From an uncultured Alphaproteobacteria bacterium (lineage in GTDB: Bacteria; Pseudomonadota; Alphaproteobacteria; GCA-2731375), in the NCBI GenBank assembly GCA_951812805.1, contig CATOSZ010000001.1, positions 62,001 through 126,000 of the forward strand: 64,000 nt of DNA, written 5' to 3'. The position numbers and the translations under genes were made by a program. This document shows positions 32,696 through 52,728 of the stretch, piece by piece. Positions within the stretch are counted from its first letter, which is position 1. Each line of letters begins with the position of its first letter. The notes under the pieces are model-generated. The model had not been told where the DNA came from, did not search any database, and saw only the letters and a list, made by a program, of their open reading frames with translations.

Positions 32696-32789
32696 GTTAT
32701 CTGGGGACAGTATACCGATTTTTATCACTCACCTTCCTCATGCTGTTATCTGGGGACAGTATACCGATTTTTATCACTCACCTTCCTCA
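32696..32789. repeat. Two perfect 45-bp direct repeats separated by 4 bases
   Basis: The unit beginning GTTATCTGGGGACAGTATAC and ending CACTCACCTTCCTCA occurs at 32696-32740 and 32745-32789, spaced by TGCT. GGGGACAGTATACC is typical of flanks of REP-associated transposase genes, and the second unit contains the stop codon of the adjacent transposase fragment, so the repeat appears to be a duplicated element end. Confidence 0.85.
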
Positions 32790-42525: not shown

Positions 42526-44967
42526 TCACTTCACGGCTATGTCCGTGATGCCGCTCCAGTTTTCGGGCGGCGGCTGTGCCATATAGCGCCAGCATCTGTC
42601 GAGATAGATCTGCGTCGGCCGGTCCGCCGGATTGCAGGAGAGCGCGATCGTGAAGGCCTCCGCGCCGCGGCGCCACTCGCGGGCGCGAAACAACCGCAGG
42701 CCCGTGGCGAAGGCGGCCAGCGCCTCCTCGACTTTCGGGAAGCCCTCGGCCGTGTGGTGGTCGAGGATTTCAAAGAGCGAGATCGGCGCGTCCCGGCCCG
42801 GCACGCGGACCCGGTCGATCTCCCGTAGCCGCCAGTCGGCCTTCAGGTGCGCGAGCGTGTGTTCGCTCACCAGGATGCGGGTGCCATAGATCTTGTTGGC
42901 ACCCTCGATGCGGCTGGCGACGTTCACATGATCGCCGATCACCGTATAGTCCATGCGCTTGGGCGAGCCGATGGTGCCGGCGACGACATGGCCCGTATCG
43001 ATGCCGATGCCGATCTCGATACGGCGGCCGCTTTCGCGTTCCATGCGGGCGTTGAAGCCGCGCAGGTAGATCAGCATGTCGACCGCGGCGCCGACCGCGT
43101 TGTCCGCGTCGTCGGGCGAGGCGAAGGGCGCGCCGAAGATCGCCATCAGCGCATCGCCGATGAACTTGTCGAGCGTGCCCGAATGCTGAAAGACGATGTC
43201 GACCATGCCGGTGAAATAGCGGTTGAGGATATCCACCATCTGCTGCGCGTCGAGCTGTTCGGACAGGCTGGTGAACTCGCGGATGTCCGAGAAGAAGATC
43301 GTCACTTCCTGCGACGTGCCGCGCAGCATCGCCTCCTCGTTTTCCAGCAGGCGCTCGACCACGCCGTCGGACATGAAGCGGACCATGGTGCCCTTGATCC
43401 GCTTCTCCTCCGTGATGTCCTCGAGGATCACCATGCCGCCGGCGCCCGCGCCGAGGGAGACGGTGGTGAGATTGGCCGAGACCGTCTCCTCCGGACCCAA
43501 TTCCAGCTCGTGGTCGAGCAGGGCGGCGAGTTCGCCGCTCTGGATCGTCTGTTCCAGGGTGGAGACGATGGCATCGTTGCGGGGCCAGAGCTCCCAGGCG
43601 TTCCGCCCGACGATCTCGTCGTCGCGGCGCAACAGCGTGTGGGCCGCCGGATTTGCCATGGTCACGCGAAGGTCGGTGTCGAAAGTGACGACGCCGTTCG
43701 AGAGGTTGTCGAGGATGTTCTCGGTAAAGGCCTTTTCCGCCAGCACCTGGCGCTGGGCGCGCCGTTCCTCGGTGACGTTGCGACCGTAGAGATTGACGTA
43801 GGCGGCACCCGTCACGGGCGTCAGCGCGAAGAGGAAGGTCCGCTCGCCGCTCGAGAACTCGGCGAAGCGGCTGGCCTCGCCCCGTCCCGCCGCGATCACC
43901 TCGTCGCGCAAGGCCGTCGCCAGCGCCGTCCCCTCGAGCAGGCCCGGCAACTCCCGCCCGGCCTGGTTGGCGAACAGCACCTCGCCATCGCGCTGGACGC
44001 GCAGGACCGGGTTCGGGTTCTCCTCGGGGAAGCGGGCGAGGTCGTGCACTTCGGCCAGTGCGCGCCGTTCCTCGGTGACGTCGCGGCCATAGAGGTTGAC
44101 GTAGCCCGCGCCGGCGATCGGCGTCAGGGCGAAGACGAACTTCCGCGCGCCGCTGGCGAACTCGGCCGTACGGTTGGCGCCGGCCTCGTAAGCCGCGGCC
44201 ATCGCGTCCGCGAGCCCGCCGTCCAGCGCCGACCCCTCGATCAGGCCCGCCAGCTCGCGCCCGGCCTGGTTGGCGAACAGCACGTCGCCGCCCTTCAGGA
44301 CGCGCAGGACGGGGTTCGGGTTTTCCTCGGGGAAACGGGCGAGATCGTGCACTTCGGCCAGTGCGCGCCGCTCCTCGGTGACGTCGCGGCCGTAGAGGTT
44401 GACGTAGTCGGTGCCCGCGACGGGGGTGAGGGCGAAGGCGAAAATCCGGTCCGCGCCGACCAGCTCCGCCATGGCGTTGGCCCCCGCGCCATGCGCGGCG
44501 GCGACCTTGGCCGAAAGGTCGGGCGTCAGGGCCGTGCCGTCGATCAGGCCGTCGAGGGCCTGTCCCGCCTGATTGGCGAACAGTATTTCGCCGTCGTGCC
44601 GTGCGCGCAGGACCGGGTTCGGGTTCTCCTCGGGAAAGCGGGCGAGGTCGTGCACTTCGGCGAGCGCGCGTCGCTCCTCGGTGACGTCGCGGCCGTAGAG
44701 GTTGACGTAGCCGGCGTCGGGGACCGGCGTCAGGGTGAAGGCGAAGATGTAATCTTCACTGCGAAACGCCCCCGCCCGACTTTCCCCCGCCGCCCAGGCC
44801 TGATCGACGGATTGGCGCAGTCCGGCCTCCAGCAGGCCGTCGTCGAAAAGGCCGCTCAGCCTGCGCCCGGCCTGGTTGGCGAACAGCACCGCGCCCGTGC
44901 GGTCGACGCGCAACACGGGGTTCGGGTTCTCCTCGGGAAAGGTCGACAGGTCCATTCCGCCCGACAT
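42526..44967 (-). CDS. Class III adenylate/guanylate cyclase with four tandem PAS modules plus a fifth PAS
   Basis: 813 residues, no membrane segment. Four modules of exactly 101 residues begin with FPEENPNPVL at residues 10, 111, 212 and 313, each with LFANQAG and ending in YVNLYGRDVTEERRALAEVH (the last slightly changed). A more typical PAS (ENILDNLSNGVVTFDTDLRV) follows from about residue 416. The catalytic domain has both metal aspartates (FFSDIREFTSLSEQ and FIGDALMAIFGAPF) and DYTVIGDHVNVASRIEGANK, so it should be active on ATP or GTP. A short C-terminal helical region follows. The near-identical modules, with the first being the most divergent, suggest repeated duplication of a 303-bp unit. 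Confidence 0.9.
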   Translation of the reverse strand: MSGGMDLSTFPEENPNPVLRVDRTGAVLFANQAGRRLSGLFDDGLLEAGLRQSVDQAWAAGESRAGAFRSEDYIFAFTLTPVPDAGYVNLYGRDVTEERRALAEVHDLARFPEENPNPVLRARHDGEILFANQAGQALDGLIDGTALTPDLSAKVAAAHGAGANAMAELVGADRIFAFALTPVAGTDYVNLYGRDVTEERRALAEVHDLARFPEENPNPVLRVLKGGDVLFANQAGRELAGLIEGSALDGGLADAMAAAYEAGANRTAEFASGARKFVFALTPIAGAGYVNLYGRDVTEERRALAEVHDLARFPEENPNPVLRVQRDGEVLFANQAGRELPGLLEGTALATALRDEVIAAGRGEASRFAEFSSGERTFLFALTPVTGAAYVNLYGRNVTEERRAQRQVLAEKAFTENILDNLSNGVVTFDTDLRVTMANPAAHTLLRRDDEIVGRNAWELWPRNDAIVSTLEQTIQSGELAALLDHELELGPEETVSANLTTVSLGAGAGGMVILEDITEEKRIKGTMVRFMSDGVVERLLENEEAMLRGTSQEVTIFFSDIREFTSLSEQLDAQQMVDILNRYFTGMVDIVFQHSGTLDKFIGDALMAIFGAPFASPDDADNAVGAAVDMLIYLRGFNARMERESGRRIEIGIGIDTGHVVAGTIGSPKRMDYTVIGDHVNVASRIEGANKIYGTRILVSEHTLAHLKADWRLREIDRVRVPGRDAPISLFEILDHHTAEGFPKVEEALAAFATGLRLFRAREWRRGAEAFTIALSCNPADRPTQIYLDRCWRYMAQPPPENWSGITDIAVK

Positions 44968-45137: not shown

Positions 45138-45214
45138 GCGCCCGTAGCTCAGTCGGATAGAGCACTTGATTCCTAATCAAGGGGTCGCAGGTTCGAGTCC
45201 TGCCGGGCGCACCA
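45138..45214 (+). tRNA. tRNA-Arg, anticodon CCT
   Basis: 77 nt including encoded CCA. Acceptor arms GCGCCCG and CGGGCGC pair fully, the D arm is GCTCAGTCGGATAGAGC, the anticodon stem CTTGA/TCAAG encloses TTCCTAA with CCT at 45172-45174, and the T arm is CGCAGGTTCGAGTCCTGCC-like with a TTCGAGT loop. It reads AGG codons. Confidence 0.97.
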
Positions 45215-45360
45215 TTTCCATGGAAATGGTCGCCCTCTTCTTATAGGAAGAGTTCGAACTTTGTTCGAACGGGCGCGCCATTCCCTTTGGAATGGCGGCC
45301 CTCTTGTTTAAAAAGAAGTTCGAACTTCGTTCGAACGGGCGCGCCATCCCATTCTCTTCA
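45204..45360 (+). repeat. 66-bp direct repeats growing out of the tRNA 3' end
   Basis: Unit 1 (45204-45269) starts with the tRNA acceptor strand CGGGCGC plus ACCA; unit 2 (45270-45335) and a partial third (from 45336) start CGGGCGCGCCA. Each has a short hairpin (ACCATTTCCATGGAAATGGT; CCATTCCCTTTGGAATGG), then CGCCCTCTT-like sequence and TTCGAACTT(T/C)GTTCGAA. GTTCGAACGGGCGCGCCA mimics a T-loop/acceptor/CCA end. Confidence 0.85.
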
Positions 45361-45373
45361 AAACCAACAATAC

Positions 45374-45910
45374 CTACTCCGCCCCATCATCGAAGGCGCG
45401 GACGATCAGCGGGCGCAAGGCGGTGAGGTCGGCGCGGTTGTCGTGGGGGTGGCCGGGGGCGCGGCGGGCGCGCTGATAGACGATGGCGTTGTAGATGTCG
45501 GGATAGAGGGCGGCTTTGCCGGCGCTTTGCAAATGTCCCGCCTGTTCCTGCATGACCTCGTCGACGAAAAGTACGATCGCCGCCAGCAGTTCAGCGTCCA
45601 CCGGTCCCGCCGGCGGCCGGCTCGCATCGTCTTCCGCCAAGCCGCTCGCCGCCGTGCCCGGTGCCTCGTAGCGGCCCCGGCGCATCGGGCCGGCGCCTTC
45701 CAGCAACCATTGGACATTGATGTTGCGAAGCCGGCAGATCTTCAACAACACCGAGGCGGGCGGATCGCGTTCCCCCTCCTCGTAGCGGCGCAAGGTCTGA
45801 TAGCCACACGACAGTTTCTCCGCCAAATCGCTCCGCGACCAGGGAGAGCGGGCGAGGCGCAGCCGTCCGCCGAGCGTCGCTTCCGGGGCATTGTCGTCGA
45901 ATTCGGTCAT
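45374..45910 (-). CDS. XRE/CI-type transcriptional regulator
   Basis: 178 residues from ATG at 45910; an earlier in-frame ATG (45994) adds a non-family extension. The helix-turn-helix lies at residues 27-60 (SRSDLAEKLSCGYQTLRRYEEGERDPPASVLLKIC) and continues RNINVQWLLEGAGPM, the pattern of phage repressor-like XRE proteins. The C-terminal half is helical without a peptidase motif, so it is not a LexA-type self-cleaving repressor. It lies convergent to the tRNA and its repeats and could be the remaining regulator of an integrated element; no integrase or other phage gene is visible. Confidence 0.8.
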   Translation of the reverse strand: MTEFDDNAPEATLGGRLRLARSPWSRSDLAEKLSCGYQTLRRYEEGERDPPASVLLKICRLRNINVQWLLEGAGPMRRGRYEAPGTAASGLAEDDASRPPAGPVDAELLAAIVLFVDEVMQEQAGHLQSAGKAALYPDIYNAIVYQRARRAPGHPHDNRADLTALRPLIVRAFDDGAE

Positions 45911-46873
45911 TTTTTCCCCGAATCCGAAAATCAGTACTTGCATACCTTCGTGTTTGGGTAGAATATATGCCCGTCGCGTTCGTAAATGAACCAAACTGAT
46001 AGAAATAGAACCGTATGGAAGGGTGAGGGGACGGACGGATGATCGGCGACGCTGGATGAGGTGCTCGTGTTCCGCAGCAGGCCTTTAACGGTTGGGCGCC
46101 GAGTTGGCGGCGATAGCGTGCGAGACGCGCTGTCAGAGGTGAGGCCAGGCCTTGTGTGCGACGCTCGATGCGGTCGCTGTCGAGGCAAGGTGGCCGCCCG
46201 ACGCCTCTCGGTATCTGTGTTGGCGTGAAGCGCTTCGCATTCGAAGGCCGAGGACGTGGTGATCGGCGAGACGAAGGCCGGGGAAGACGGGAAGGATAGG
46301 GAAGCAGAAATCGAAGAAAGGAAGGCCCAAGGAACAACGGCGAAAGAATCAGCGGCGAACGAATCAACGGCTCGAGTTGTGGATCGGCGAAGGTCGTAGT
46401 CCCGCGGGGTGAGAATACCCGAGGGAGGGGCGCGGAACGCTTTGAAGTTCGTAACGTCGCCTTGACGAACGAGATGTCGAGCATCGCTACGTCGCTCCAT
46501 AACGCCGGCCCGACGCGTGGGCATCGCCCGCCGGGCAAAGTTACGCCGCCGCGGCTGGCGGCATGAAAGCCGGTCGCAGCCGGGGCCATCGGCGGGAACC
46601 AGGCCGTGGTGCGCCGGAGCAGCCGGGTCCGCGTCGAATCAGCCGTGTCAAATCCGCCCGTGTCGAATTGGCTGAGGCCAATCCCCGAGCGGCATCACGC
46701 CACGCCGGAGCCACGGCACGGTACCGCGTCAAAGATACGGCGCCACGCCACGCCGAGCATACCGCACGGTTCGACGGCGAGGATACGACGCCGAACCGTA
46801 CCGAAGACAAGGTTTCACGCGATGAATGTCGCGTCAAACCGGCGGAGCGTCGGGCGGCTTTCAAATTCCGCCG

Positions 46874-46930
46874 GAACTGGCGGATTCCGTCGGAGCTGGT
46901 GGATTCCGTGGGGACTCGCGGATTCTGTTC
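46874..46930 (+). repeat. 19-bp tandem repeat, about three units
   Basis: GAACTGGCGGATTCCGTCG is followed by GAGCTGGTGGATTCCGTGG and a weaker third unit starting GGACTCGCGGATTCTG. Confidence 0.75.
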
Positions 46931-47102
46931 GAGCTCGGACTCCGACCGGACGTCCCGGGTCGGCGCACTACCGGCGAGGGGCCTCGTGTTGATCGGAAAG
47001 GCTTGCCCTTCGGGCGTGCGGGCGACGGCGTTCGTGGACGAGAGGGCAGGAGGCGGTGTCCGAGGAGATGGCCGGTGAGGCGGAATTGGGTGGCGCGAGG
47101 GG

Positions 47103-47186
47103 GCATCGACGTCGGTGCATCGACGGCAGCGCATCGACGTCAGAGCGTCGATGTCGGTGCATCGACGTCGGGGCATCGATGCCGGC
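47103..47186 (+). repeat. 14-bp minisatellite, six units
   Basis: Six consecutive 14-base units vary around GCATCGACGTCGGT (47103, 47117, 47131, 47145, 47159, 47173), with a weak seventh. The unit length is not a multiple of three, which argues against a coding repeat. Confidence 0.88.
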
Positions 47187-47856
47187 GCGTCACCGACGAT
47201 GCGCGCGCACTGCGGTGGCCGGGCGGGGCCGGCTCGACGGCGAATCACACGGTCCGCGACCGGCGGCGGTGGCATCCTTGGTCCGCCGTCATGCCCGGTT
47301 GCGACTCGTCGGCCGGTCGGGCCCGCGGCCGGGGCGCATCGGTCGCGTGGCATGGCGGCCGGTCGGCGGGGATGCCCCGGACGACGCCTCGCGGCAGTCG
47401 TCCGGGGCATCGCTCTCTCGCAATGAAGGTCCGGGGATGGCGCTCGATCCGCATGACGACAGCGCGTCCGGCACGCGGGCATTGCCGTCGAAGCGATCGG
47501 ATCCGGCGTCGTGAAACCACCCCTCACCAAAACCGACATCCCCGTCGGGGGCATCGATACGCTCGGGATCATCCCGGCCCGGGCCGTCGGCGATGGGCAT
47601 GCCGCCGGGATCGACGTCCAACCTCGGACCGGGCCCTCGGCGTGAGGGGGACGGGAACCGGATTTGGCCCGACGGCGCGCAGCTCTCCTGCCATCGCAGC
47701 TGTCGACGGCCTCGCCGACATGGCTCCCGCCGGCCCGCGCCGCCGCCCATCTCGGGGCGTGCGGGTCCGCTATGCGGGTCGTGCGCCGACGTCGCCGACA
47801 GTGACGGTGGCAGTGACGGCATGTTGTCGGCGGCACTCCCGCCCGCGTCTTTCGCG

Positions 47857-48621
47857 ATGTATCGCCTCGGGGGCGGGGCGGTGAGCCTCGCGGTCACCTT
47901 CGTCGGGGCCGGAGATGCCTTTGGCGCCGGCGCGCGCTTCCAGGCTTGCGTCCTGCTCGATAGCGGCGACTTTCGCCTGGCGGTCGACTTCGGGCCGTCC
48001 AGCCTGATCGCGCTCGCCGGGCTCGGCATCGAGCCGGGCGACATCGATGCGATTGTGCTGACCAGTTTGAACGGCGAGCGGTGCGCCGGCGTGCCGTTCC
48101 TGTTGCGCCGCCCGCAGGGCGCGTCGGGGCGACGCGTGCCGCTCGTCATCGCCGGGCCCCCCGACTGCACGAACCGCCTGGCCACCCTCGGCGAGGTGTT
48201 GTTTCCGGGTGCGCGTGGGCAGGCCTCGGCCGATCGTTGCCGGGTCGTGGAGCTGGCGATGCGCGGGCGGGAGGCGATCGGGCCCGCCGTGGTGACCAGC
48301 CTCCCCGCCGCGGGCGAAGCTGCATCGCGGGGGATCGCGCTCAGAATAGAACTCGCGCGCAAGGTCGTCGCCGTTGCGGGGGCAGGGGCCTGGTCGGCGA
48401 GCCTCCCCGCGCTCGCCCGCGACGCCGACCTCTTCATCGCCGCCTGCCCGCGCTACGCCGGGCGGGACCCGCGAGAGGTCACCTACCTCGATCTCCAGGC
48501 CTACGCACGCCGCCTGACCTGCCGGCGCATGATCCTGACCCAGCTCGGCCACGACATGCTGCCCCGGCGGGCGAGCTTGCCGGAAGAAACCGCCCACGAC
48601 GGTCTCGTGGTCACCCTGTAG
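47857..48621 (+). CDS. Metallo-beta-lactamase-fold protein lacking the metal-binding motif (probable pseudoenzyme)
   Basis: 254 residues from ATG at 47857; ATG 47821 and GTG 47881 are alternatives, and homology starts near LAVTFVGAGDAFGAGARFQ. This opening and the C-terminal THxxxDM-like block (RRMILTQLGHDMLPRRASLP) match RNase Z-type MBL hydrolases. The signature HxHxDH site is VLTSLNGERCAGVPFLL here: the histidines and aspartate are replaced by Leu/Asn/Glu/Arg while GVPFLL is retained. Further histidine ligands are also absent (AACPRYAGRDPREVTYL). The frame is clean over its whole length, so a non-catalytic or differently acting protein is more likely than simple decay. Confidence 0.75.
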   Translation: MYRLGGGAVSLAVTFVGAGDAFGAGARFQACVLLDSGDFRLAVDFGPSSLIALAGLGIEPGDIDAIVLTSLNGERCAGVPFLLRRPQGASGRRVPLVIAGPPDCTNRLATLGEVLFPGARGQASADRCRVVELAMRGREAIGPAVVTSLPAAGEAASRGIALRIELARKVVAVAGAGAWSASLPALARDADLFIAACPRYAGRDPREVTYLDLQAYARRLTCRRMILTQLGHDMLPRRASLPEETAHDGLVVTL

Positions 48622-51610: not shown

Positions 51611-52728
51611 TGTCCAGGTTCACTACATATGAGACGACGAGGTCTTCTTGGCTGTGATCTGTCGAAGGTACTCCTCGGGGGTTTTGCCTTTCAAGGCTCC
51701 ATGAGGCCTGAAGGTGTTGTAGATGTTGGCGAACTTGTCGATCTGTGGGTTTAGTTTGTCGAGCTGGTCCTCGATGTCATGGCAGGCGTAGAACTCGTAG
51801 CGCCATGCGCCGTTGGCTCGCTCGACGCCGCCATTGAGCTGCGGCGTCCTCGGCGGCAAGACATAGACGGGGATCTTTCGGCTCTCGCAGGCGGCCTCGA
51901 ACTCGGCCATGAACTCGGATCCACCGTCGACCTGGATGGCCTTCACGGGGAAGGGCAGGTCGGCCACGAGTTTGTCGAGGAAACTCTCGGCGTTCCTGGC
52001 GGTCGCTCTGCGGAAGGCCTTGGCACAGGTGAAGCGGCTGACGGGATCGTAGGCGGTGAACTGCTTGACCGTGCGCTCGCCGGCCGGCGTGATGCTCAAG
52101 GTGTCGAGCTGGACCAGATCGCCGGGGGCCGTTGCCTTCATCCCCTTCGGCAAACGCTTGGCGTGTGGGCGCTTGGCTCTCTTGCCCTTGGCGCGTCGTC
52201 GCGCCACGGGCACCGGCACAACGACGCCGCGCGCGACCAGATGGGCGAGCATGCGACCAACGGTGCTGTCCGACAAGGTGAAGCCCTCTCGGCGCAGCAG
52301 CGGTCCGAGCTTGGCCTTGCCCCACATCGGGAAGTCGCGGCGCAGCCGTTCAAGCCGACGCAGCACCGCACTCGACCACTCTCGGCGACGACGGCGGCGA
52401 GGCGCGCGCGAGCGCGGCTCCAACCGCTCGTCCCAGCGATAGAGCGTGCTACGCGGCACGCCCACCGCCTGGGCCGCCGCCTCGGCCGTCAAGCCGTCAC
52501 GCCGGGCCCGATGCCAACGCCGGACGGCGTCGCGTCTGAACGCTACGCATTTAGTGTCGGGCTCCGCGTTCAGACGCGACGCCGTCCTCCAACCCCTGAT
52601 AACATGTCGGGGCAGGCCAAAAACCTGCATGGGGATCTCCTTCAAGCTGTTGGTCTCGCAACTCACAGCTTCGGAGATCCCCGCCTCTGCCGCCAGAGGC
52701 GCGTCTCACATCTATCTGAACCTAGTCA
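51611..52728 (-). mobile_element. IS481-family-like insertion sequence (about 1,118 bp) with GAGTT target duplication
   Basis: The imperfect terminal inverted repeats are TGTCCAGGTTCACTACATAT and, from the other end, TGACTAGGTTCAGATAGATG. GAGTT flanks both ends (51606-51610 and 52729-52733). The element lies between the small membrane protein gene and the epimerase stop codon and breaks no recognisable gene. Confidence 0.85.
51623..52630 (-). CDS. IS481-like transposase (DDE integrase fold)
   Basis: 335 residues from ATG at 52630, preceded by AAGGAGATCCCC; an in-frame start 36 bases upstream is weaker. A helix-turn-helix (GLTAEAAAQAVGVPRSTLYRW) and an Arg-rich linker lead to the catalytic core: GDLVQLDTLSITP (first Asp), AIQVDGGSEFMAEFE (second Asp), and TPQLNGGVERANGAWRYEF (Glu), ending FRPHGALKGKTPEEYL. 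The frame is intact. It mobilises only its own element. Confidence 0.92.
   Translation of the reverse strand: MQVFGLPRHVIRGWRTASRLNAEPDTKCVAFRRDAVRRWHRARRDGLTAEAAAQAVGVPRSTLYRWDERLEPRSRAPRRRRRREWSSAVLRRLERLRRDFPMWGKAKLGPLLRREGFTLSDSTVGRMLAHLVARGVVVPVPVARRRAKGKRAKRPHAKRLPKGMKATAPGDLVQLDTLSITPAGERTVKQFTAYDPVSRFTCAKAFRRATARNAESFLDKLVADLPFPVKAIQVDGGSEFMAEFEAACESRKIPVYVLPPRTPQLNGGVERANGAWRYEFYACHDIEDQLDKLNPQIDKFANIYNTFRPHGALKGKTPEEYLRQITAKKTSSSHM

Follow-up and report, generated by a model that had tools for sequence, protein, structure and literature searches.

A tandem array behind an alphaproteobacterial tRNA-Arg gene as a probable case of short structured tRNA-tail repeats

The tandem array that directly follows a tRNA-Arg(CCT) gene in the window, i.e., the whole analysed stretch of 64,000 nucleotides from an uncultured alphaproteobacterium, can on the basis of sequence comparison be regarded with good support as one case of short, structured tRNA-tail repeats, which start directly after CCA and occur scattered among the Alphaproteobacteria. 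tRNA 3′ ends are usual integration sites and the classic landing sites of islands; here, another kind of repeat, free of genes, occupies this landing spot and rebuilds the tRNA end. In our view, the chances are about even that the tails are transcribed and that the repeat type of the window, hereafter Arg-type, slows tRNA maturation by retaining the 3′ end. Tail transcription and the gating of maturation are what we infer, and the competing fold is a prediction of folding models. In the accessible portions of the open-licence literature, we found no description of tRNA-tail repeats.

The array behind tRNA-Arg(CCT)

The array comprises the following features, to which a neighbouring gene is added:

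45138–45214, + strand: tRNA-Arg(CCT) with encoded CCA (ARAGORN; Rfam RF00005, 73.9 bits)
45205–45235, + strand: hairpin A of unit 1, tRNA acceptor 3′ strand and CCA paired with the 5′ arm of the unit (folding, covariation, competition fold)
45215–45280, + strand: tail unit 1 in the CCA-to-CCA register, 66 nt (sequence reading, repeat search; matched by model R3, as expected by construction since R3 was built from units 1 and 2)
45236–45251, + strand: hairpin B of unit 1, with weak conservation in relatives (fold; 66.7% of cells paired in alignment A6)
45253–45269, + strand: hairpin C of unit 1, the pseudo T-arm TTCGAAC-TTT-GTTCGAA (96.2% paired, nearly invariant; local hairpin in the single-unit fold)
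45271–45301, + strand: hairpin A of unit 2, in which the tRNA-like end of unit 1 takes part (fold, alignment)
45281–45346, + strand: tail unit 2 in the CCA-to-CCA register, 66 nt (sequence reading, repeat search; R3 match likewise expected by construction)
45319–45335, + strand: hairpin C of unit 2 (alignment and pairing counts)
45336–45352, + strand: partial third copy in the register of the initial annotation, a tRNA-like end and a few bases (end of the TRF array)
45374–45931, − strand: HTH protein of 185 aa facing the array, not counted as part of it (Pfam HTH_3, PF01381)

The initial annotation had described 66-bp repeats that begin within the 3′ end of the tRNA-Arg gene and hold a hairpin in each unit, and both statements were borne out. 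The former agrees with ARAGORN, the repeat search and TRF: two 66-nt copies (45204–45269 and 45270–45335) are 77% identical, and TRF reports an array of 2.3 copies with a score of 198 that ends at 45352. Hairpins were found in each unit, and the array folds at −76.8 kcal/mol, compared with a shuffle mean of −43.9 kcal/mol (z −8.5; none of 200 shuffles was as good). No gap separates tRNA-Arg(CCT) from the first tail unit and, read from CCA to CCA, each unit ends with CGGGCGCGCCA, which nearly repeats the 3′ terminus of the tRNA, CGGGCGCACCA.

On the tRNA strand, neither a sigma-70 promoter nor an intrinsic terminator was found; the opposite strand holds one terminator-like site, compared with 0.6 in shuffles. 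The window unit has no further strong copy in the 7.42-Mb genome, where the other matches are parts of the array or stretches of 15–25 nt with E values of at least 3.35.

A second repeat type in the same genome

Inspection of the bases behind all tRNA genes of the source genome (44 Rfam matches, 44 ARAGORN calls) revealed a repeat starting directly after CCA in 9 of the 44 tRNA calls. Carriers are Arg(CCT), Val(TAC), Val(CAC), Leu(TAA), Met(CAT), where the repeat is decayed, and four of five Ser-typed calls; the fifth such call (L077) has no CCA. Together with the units at tRNA ends in other families, this makes the initially proposed link to tRNA ends even stronger than first stated.

Eight of the nine carriers bear a second type of unit, which is 78–79 nt long, has two hairpins and ends like TCCACCA or TCCGCCA. 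Layout and place are common to this type and the Arg-type of the window, at an identity of 0.42–0.55, which is the background level; for the units of this genome, the values are 0.49–0.54. Because only layout and place are shared, not sequence, the two types need not form one family. At tRNA-Ser(CGA), four near-identical tandem units are followed by the start of a fifth. Within this genome, a Ser-type query gave 12 matches and a Val-type query 8, all of them behind tRNA genes or earlier units. The distal units of the second-type arrays are decayed, and the unit ends on the Val and Leu tRNAs agree with those tRNAs only over the last 5–6 bases.

Occurrence in other genomes

Among the 385 genomes searched in the class, nine had matches to the first model of the second type (R1). 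In named genomes, a pattern scan yielded 119 loci with 25 R1-matched stretches, all in records titled with alphaproteobacterial groups or genera; the genera are ones that we take to be assigned to Alphaproteobacteria, and it is on such titles that the naming of the class as Alphaproteobacteria rests. Cultured carriers of the second type are Roseospirillum parvum (tRNA-Met, L215) and Oceaniradius stylonematis (tRNA-Leu, L199). With a covariance model built from 30 second-type units (R2), at most 21 of the 385 genomes had matches. Of the 39 R2 matches with E ≤ 1e-6, 30 follow a tRNA directly or within its array, one is at a contig edge and eight are not preceded by a complete tRNA; two of these eight are apparently inside a protein gene (our own reading), one follows an apparent tRNA-Ser 3′ fragment and one a T-arm-like stretch. 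R2 matches weaker than E 1e-6 are mostly away from tRNAs.

The covariance model of the Arg-type (R3) gave 19 matches in 11 of the 385 genomes: 14 behind a complete tRNA or in tandem to one, two behind a tRNA-Arg 3′ half, two at a contig end, where no judgement on a tRNA in front is possible, and one without a tRNA. The carriers are Arg tRNAs with the anticodon CCG, ACG, CCT or TCT and, in genome G118, a tRNA-Phe. A search for the unit at other tRNA ends, as suggested initially, came out positive, with 16 of the 19 class-wide matches behind a tRNA or tRNA half or in tandem to one. The opposite outcome, a general dispersed repeat unrelated to tRNAs, was not what we found: no second copy of the window unit was found in its own genome, and only one of the 19 class-wide matches is without a tRNA or tRNA half, apart from the two at a contig end.

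Within families, the repeats are patchy. The Arg-type occurs in one of 24 genomes of the family of G220. Among the tRNA-Met orthologues of the G222 family, a tail is present or decayed in G222, G388 and G311 and was not seen in most others, from which the turnover would appear to be fast. In IMG/VR, the pattern scan gave three loci, none of them matched by a model. No Rfam 15 family reached its gathering score over the tail in the loci tested, and the window region showed only sub-threshold overlaps.

Several other layouts were seen next to tRNA ends. Behind tRNA-Leu, loci L260 and L315 (G338) and L272 (G167) carry a further tail with another first hairpin and a similar pseudo T-arm. At L191 and L205, the tail unit is separated from the tRNA end by a small perfect hairpin including CCA (CCAAAATCTTCGATTTTGG). 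A TTCAATGACTTAG-like motif follows the CCA of several tRNAs in different genomes (L039, L329, L023) and is possibly a marker of island attachment sites.

Copying between tRNA genes

Where one genome has units on several tRNA genes, these are 0.91–0.99 identical to one another in G017, G259, G220 and G330 and also in the Val/Leu set of the window's genome, whose Ser set reaches 0.77–0.95. The 80 bases behind the units are 0.45–0.56 identical, i.e., at the level of unrelated DNA; the identity of the tRNAs themselves has no meaning in this comparison for second or later tandem units and for the half tRNA of G220. Likeness of the units next to unrelated flanks argues that the bare 66–79-bp unit has moved between tRNA genes, without tRNA body or flank, and this reading of the alignments is well supported. 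In G220 and its congener G395, the same tRNA-Arg(CCG) locus is about 85% identical up to CCA, with nothing alike beyond; the far flank differs too, and this comparison gave no clean empty site. The end of the Arg-type unit of G095 copies the variant tRNA-Arg end of that genome.

Arg-type units were also found behind tRNA-Arg 3′ halves, namely at L290 (G220) and L280 (G042). In our own reading, islands may later have cut the tRNA off its tail at these two units.

Structure and covariation

For the second type, 30 of 45 aligned units were used (alignment A4). Its hairpin 1 is paired in 97.1% of cells though the stem varies freely, and over the whole structure 61 cells are changed on both sides, compared with 17.4 ± 3.6 in shuffles; slid registers come nowhere near the observed covariation. 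The loop of hairpin 1 reads GCCGCCCGCCAACCC or a variant of it. On the other strand, 40 of the 44 loops that could be parsed from the 45 units keep its four GG runs, as do 9 of 10 dispersed copies; this conservation is partly built in, as the models and the pattern demand CCAACCC. Four such runs would suit a two-layer G-quadruplex. For 41 of 45 units, folding is better on this other strand, and G-U stands against A-C at 8 to 4 in 27 distinct arm pairs and at 4 to 3 in A4. The loop and the lower folding energy would favour the strand opposite the tRNA, with the G-U counts being indecisive.

Hairpin 1 of the second type also occurs dispersed, off tRNA tails, with GCCGCCCGCCAACCC or a close variant as its loop and freely varying stems (L301–L308 in G018, L309–L310 in G070). 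These copies have the four GG runs on the other strand and resemble a G-quadruplex motif.

The Arg-type alignment (A6) holds 15 of the 19 R3 rows and omits the second unit of G346, two rows of the contig-end array of G330 and the row of G023 without tRNA. Hairpin A, which joins the 5′ arm of the unit to the tRNA 3′ strand and CCA, is paired in 93.3% of cells. Covariation over the whole structure is weak to modest (0.140 compared with 0.113 ± 0.012; 9 of 500 shuffles were as high). G-U outnumbers A-C by 12 to 2 in hairpin A, where related rows are not independent, and by 21 to 7 over all three hairpins, an excess that would favour an RNA on the tRNA strand. For the Arg unit, folding of a single sequence also gave a mini-tRNA with an acceptor-like stem and two arms; this structure was rejected, its covariation being no better than that of shuffles.

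Competition with the acceptor stem

For each locus, the tRNA was folded together with one unit, and the tRNA end was counted as drawn into the tail if at least 6 of its last 11 bases paired there; the energy predictions take no account of tRNA tertiary structure and modification. In the predicted best fold, the tRNA 3′ strand is drawn into the tail at 11 of the 12 Arg-type loci with a complete tRNA, compared with none of the 35 tRNAs of the window's genome that lack a unit. Shuffled Arg-type tails draw in the tRNA end in 1–20 of 100 cases per locus. With the second type, this occurs at 2 of 13 loci only, and since the tRNA end is usually not drawn in, gating cannot explain this type.

The arm of the unit on tRNA-Phe in G118 fits the Phe end GGGCACCA best, with −16.8 as compared with −13.8 or weaker for the other ends. 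Over the set, the cognate tRNA end is the best partner for only 7 of 12 arms, as most tRNA ends are alike; at L277, it ranks last.

Discussion

The preferred reading could work as follows. A complete unit restores a tRNA-like 3′ end, which leaves the tRNA gene intact and lets units stack. Within a genome, as the comparison shows, units have been copied from tRNA gene to tRNA gene as bare 66–79-bp pieces, and they would presumably be transcribed as the 3′ trailer of the tRNA. In the Arg-type, the first arm of the tail would pair with the acceptor 3′ strand and CCA of the tRNA, so that the uncut precursor would be a hairpin and not a full acceptor stem, and trimming or cutting of the tail would free the tRNA 3′ end. 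The tail may in this way slow or gate tRNA 3′ maturation, perhaps without benefit for the host. A processing decoy or an interfering tail, which is close to the preferred reading, is possible.

REP and MITE-like elements are dispersed bacterial palindromes, which are short, multicopy and non-coding. The tail repeats are likewise short, non-coding, multicopy and palindromic, and second-type hairpin 1 is dispersed in G018 and G070. However, the units proper are located at tRNA 3′ ends, and the hairpin-1 loop is conserved with a variable stem. Dispersed intergenic copies, by which REP or BIME elements would be recognised, were not found for the unit in its own genome, where the other matches are weak; in the two genomes named, the second-type hairpin-1 module alone has them.

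To our knowledge, the function of the E. coli RtT repeat is still unclear. In layout, the tRNA-tail repeats resemble these repeats (RF00391; RttR; the tyrT/tyrV repeats), which start after CCA, stand in tandem, carry a copy of the tRNA 3′ end at their own end and contain GGTTCGA. The tyrV unit of E. coli K-12 carries GGGGAAGGAT, a possible pairing partner of the tRNA-Tyr 3′ strand; the predicted fold there draws 5 of the last 11 tRNA bases into the tail, and 2 of 100 shuffles reach that. In contrast to the 66–79 nt found here, the E. coli units have 178 nt on tRNA-Tyr in the region examined. By the covariance model the tail repeats are not members of RtT: RF00391 matched neither the window region nor any of 15 related loci, and hit the E. 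coli control four times. The spacer at the 3′ end of a tRNA transcript is also the source of a functional RNA, 3′ETS-leuZ, which in the passages on it is not described as a repeat or as copied between tRNAs (PMC12559287).

An explanation by selfishness only appears somewhat unlikely to us. The units would then be non-autonomous elements that home to tRNA 3′ ends, are moved by an enzyme on ssDNA or RNA and leave the tRNA unaffected, with the tRNA-end pairing as a by-product of the origin of the unit, e.g., by snap-back copying of the tRNA end. This fits the copying of bare units between different tRNA genes, the patchy distribution and the decayed distal units, and also the strand preference of the second type, whose other strand keeps the GG runs in 40 of 44 loops and gives the better fold in 41 of 45 units; however, the Arg-type excess of G-U over A-C points to an RNA of the tRNA strand, and no empty site with both flanks was found. 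Unlikely as well, in our estimation, is that minimal mobile elements home to the tRNA CCA end via an RNA or ssDNA intermediate, restore a tRNA-like end that allows harmless stacking and, in the Arg/Phe type, hold the 3′ end in a hairpin by an arm fitted to the host tRNA until the tail is gone, which would make the unit a selfish element turned maturation switch. We hold it quite improbable that the tail is set free when the tRNA is processed and then works in trans, as a small RNA or a sponge, as might be suggested by the shared layout with the E. coli tyrV repeats and by reports that RtT is released from a tRNA operon transcript (PMC4986893) and that tRNA spacers can act as sponges, e.g., 3′ETS-leuZ (PMC12559287). 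Against this speak the lack of an Rfam match, the differences of the units among genomes and the small number of genomes carrying them.

Very improbable is a mere local tandem duplication of each tRNA 3′ end, with no transfer between genes. The Arg-type unit ends do copy the tRNA-Arg end, the variant end in G095 included, and the tandem units at tRNA-Ser(CGA) are near-identical, but units on different tRNA genes of one genome resemble one another far more than the tRNAs or the flanks do, and the short agreement of the Val and Leu unit ends with their tRNAs fits poorly. We give hardly any credence to the initial proposal of stacked attachment sites of a phage or integrative element. A direct repeat of the tRNA end, and tRNA 3′ halves before two units, would be in line with it; yet of 25 unit loci in seven genomes, with distances compared by hand, a single one has a tyrosine integrase (PF00589) within 5 kb, namely a tRNA-Leu(TAA) at C1:541.9k, with the integrase at 544.3k. 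One G220 locus of this survey is only 0.2 kb from a contig end. Phage and plasmid collections held no match to the window array or to one second-type unit, and the inserts are 66–79 bp long and without genes. A phage or island attachment array was consequently rejected on the integrase distances and the absent phage and plasmid matches.

If the tails gate maturation as in the preferred reading, they would represent a cis-acting control on single tRNA genes; if they are selfish, they would combine a very small size with an unusually precise target. The E. coli RtT repeat would then belong to a wider phenomenon, which could be tested by comparison.

As for the neighbourhood of the array, the initial annotation had placed a phage-type repressor directly beyond it. 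An HTH protein is indeed encoded there, recognised by one generic domain (PF01381), and nothing shows it to be a phage gene. Further repeats are found in the window, i.e., a perfect direct repeat of a 49-bp unit in 1.9 copies (32696–32789), a 303-bp tandem repeat within the reading frame of a cyclase gene with PAS domains (42526–44967) and many short GC tandem repeats in a region with no clear genes (46000–47900). The region 51623–52666, at a distance of about 6 kb from the array, encodes a transposase-like protein in which an integrase core domain (rve_3) is recognised.
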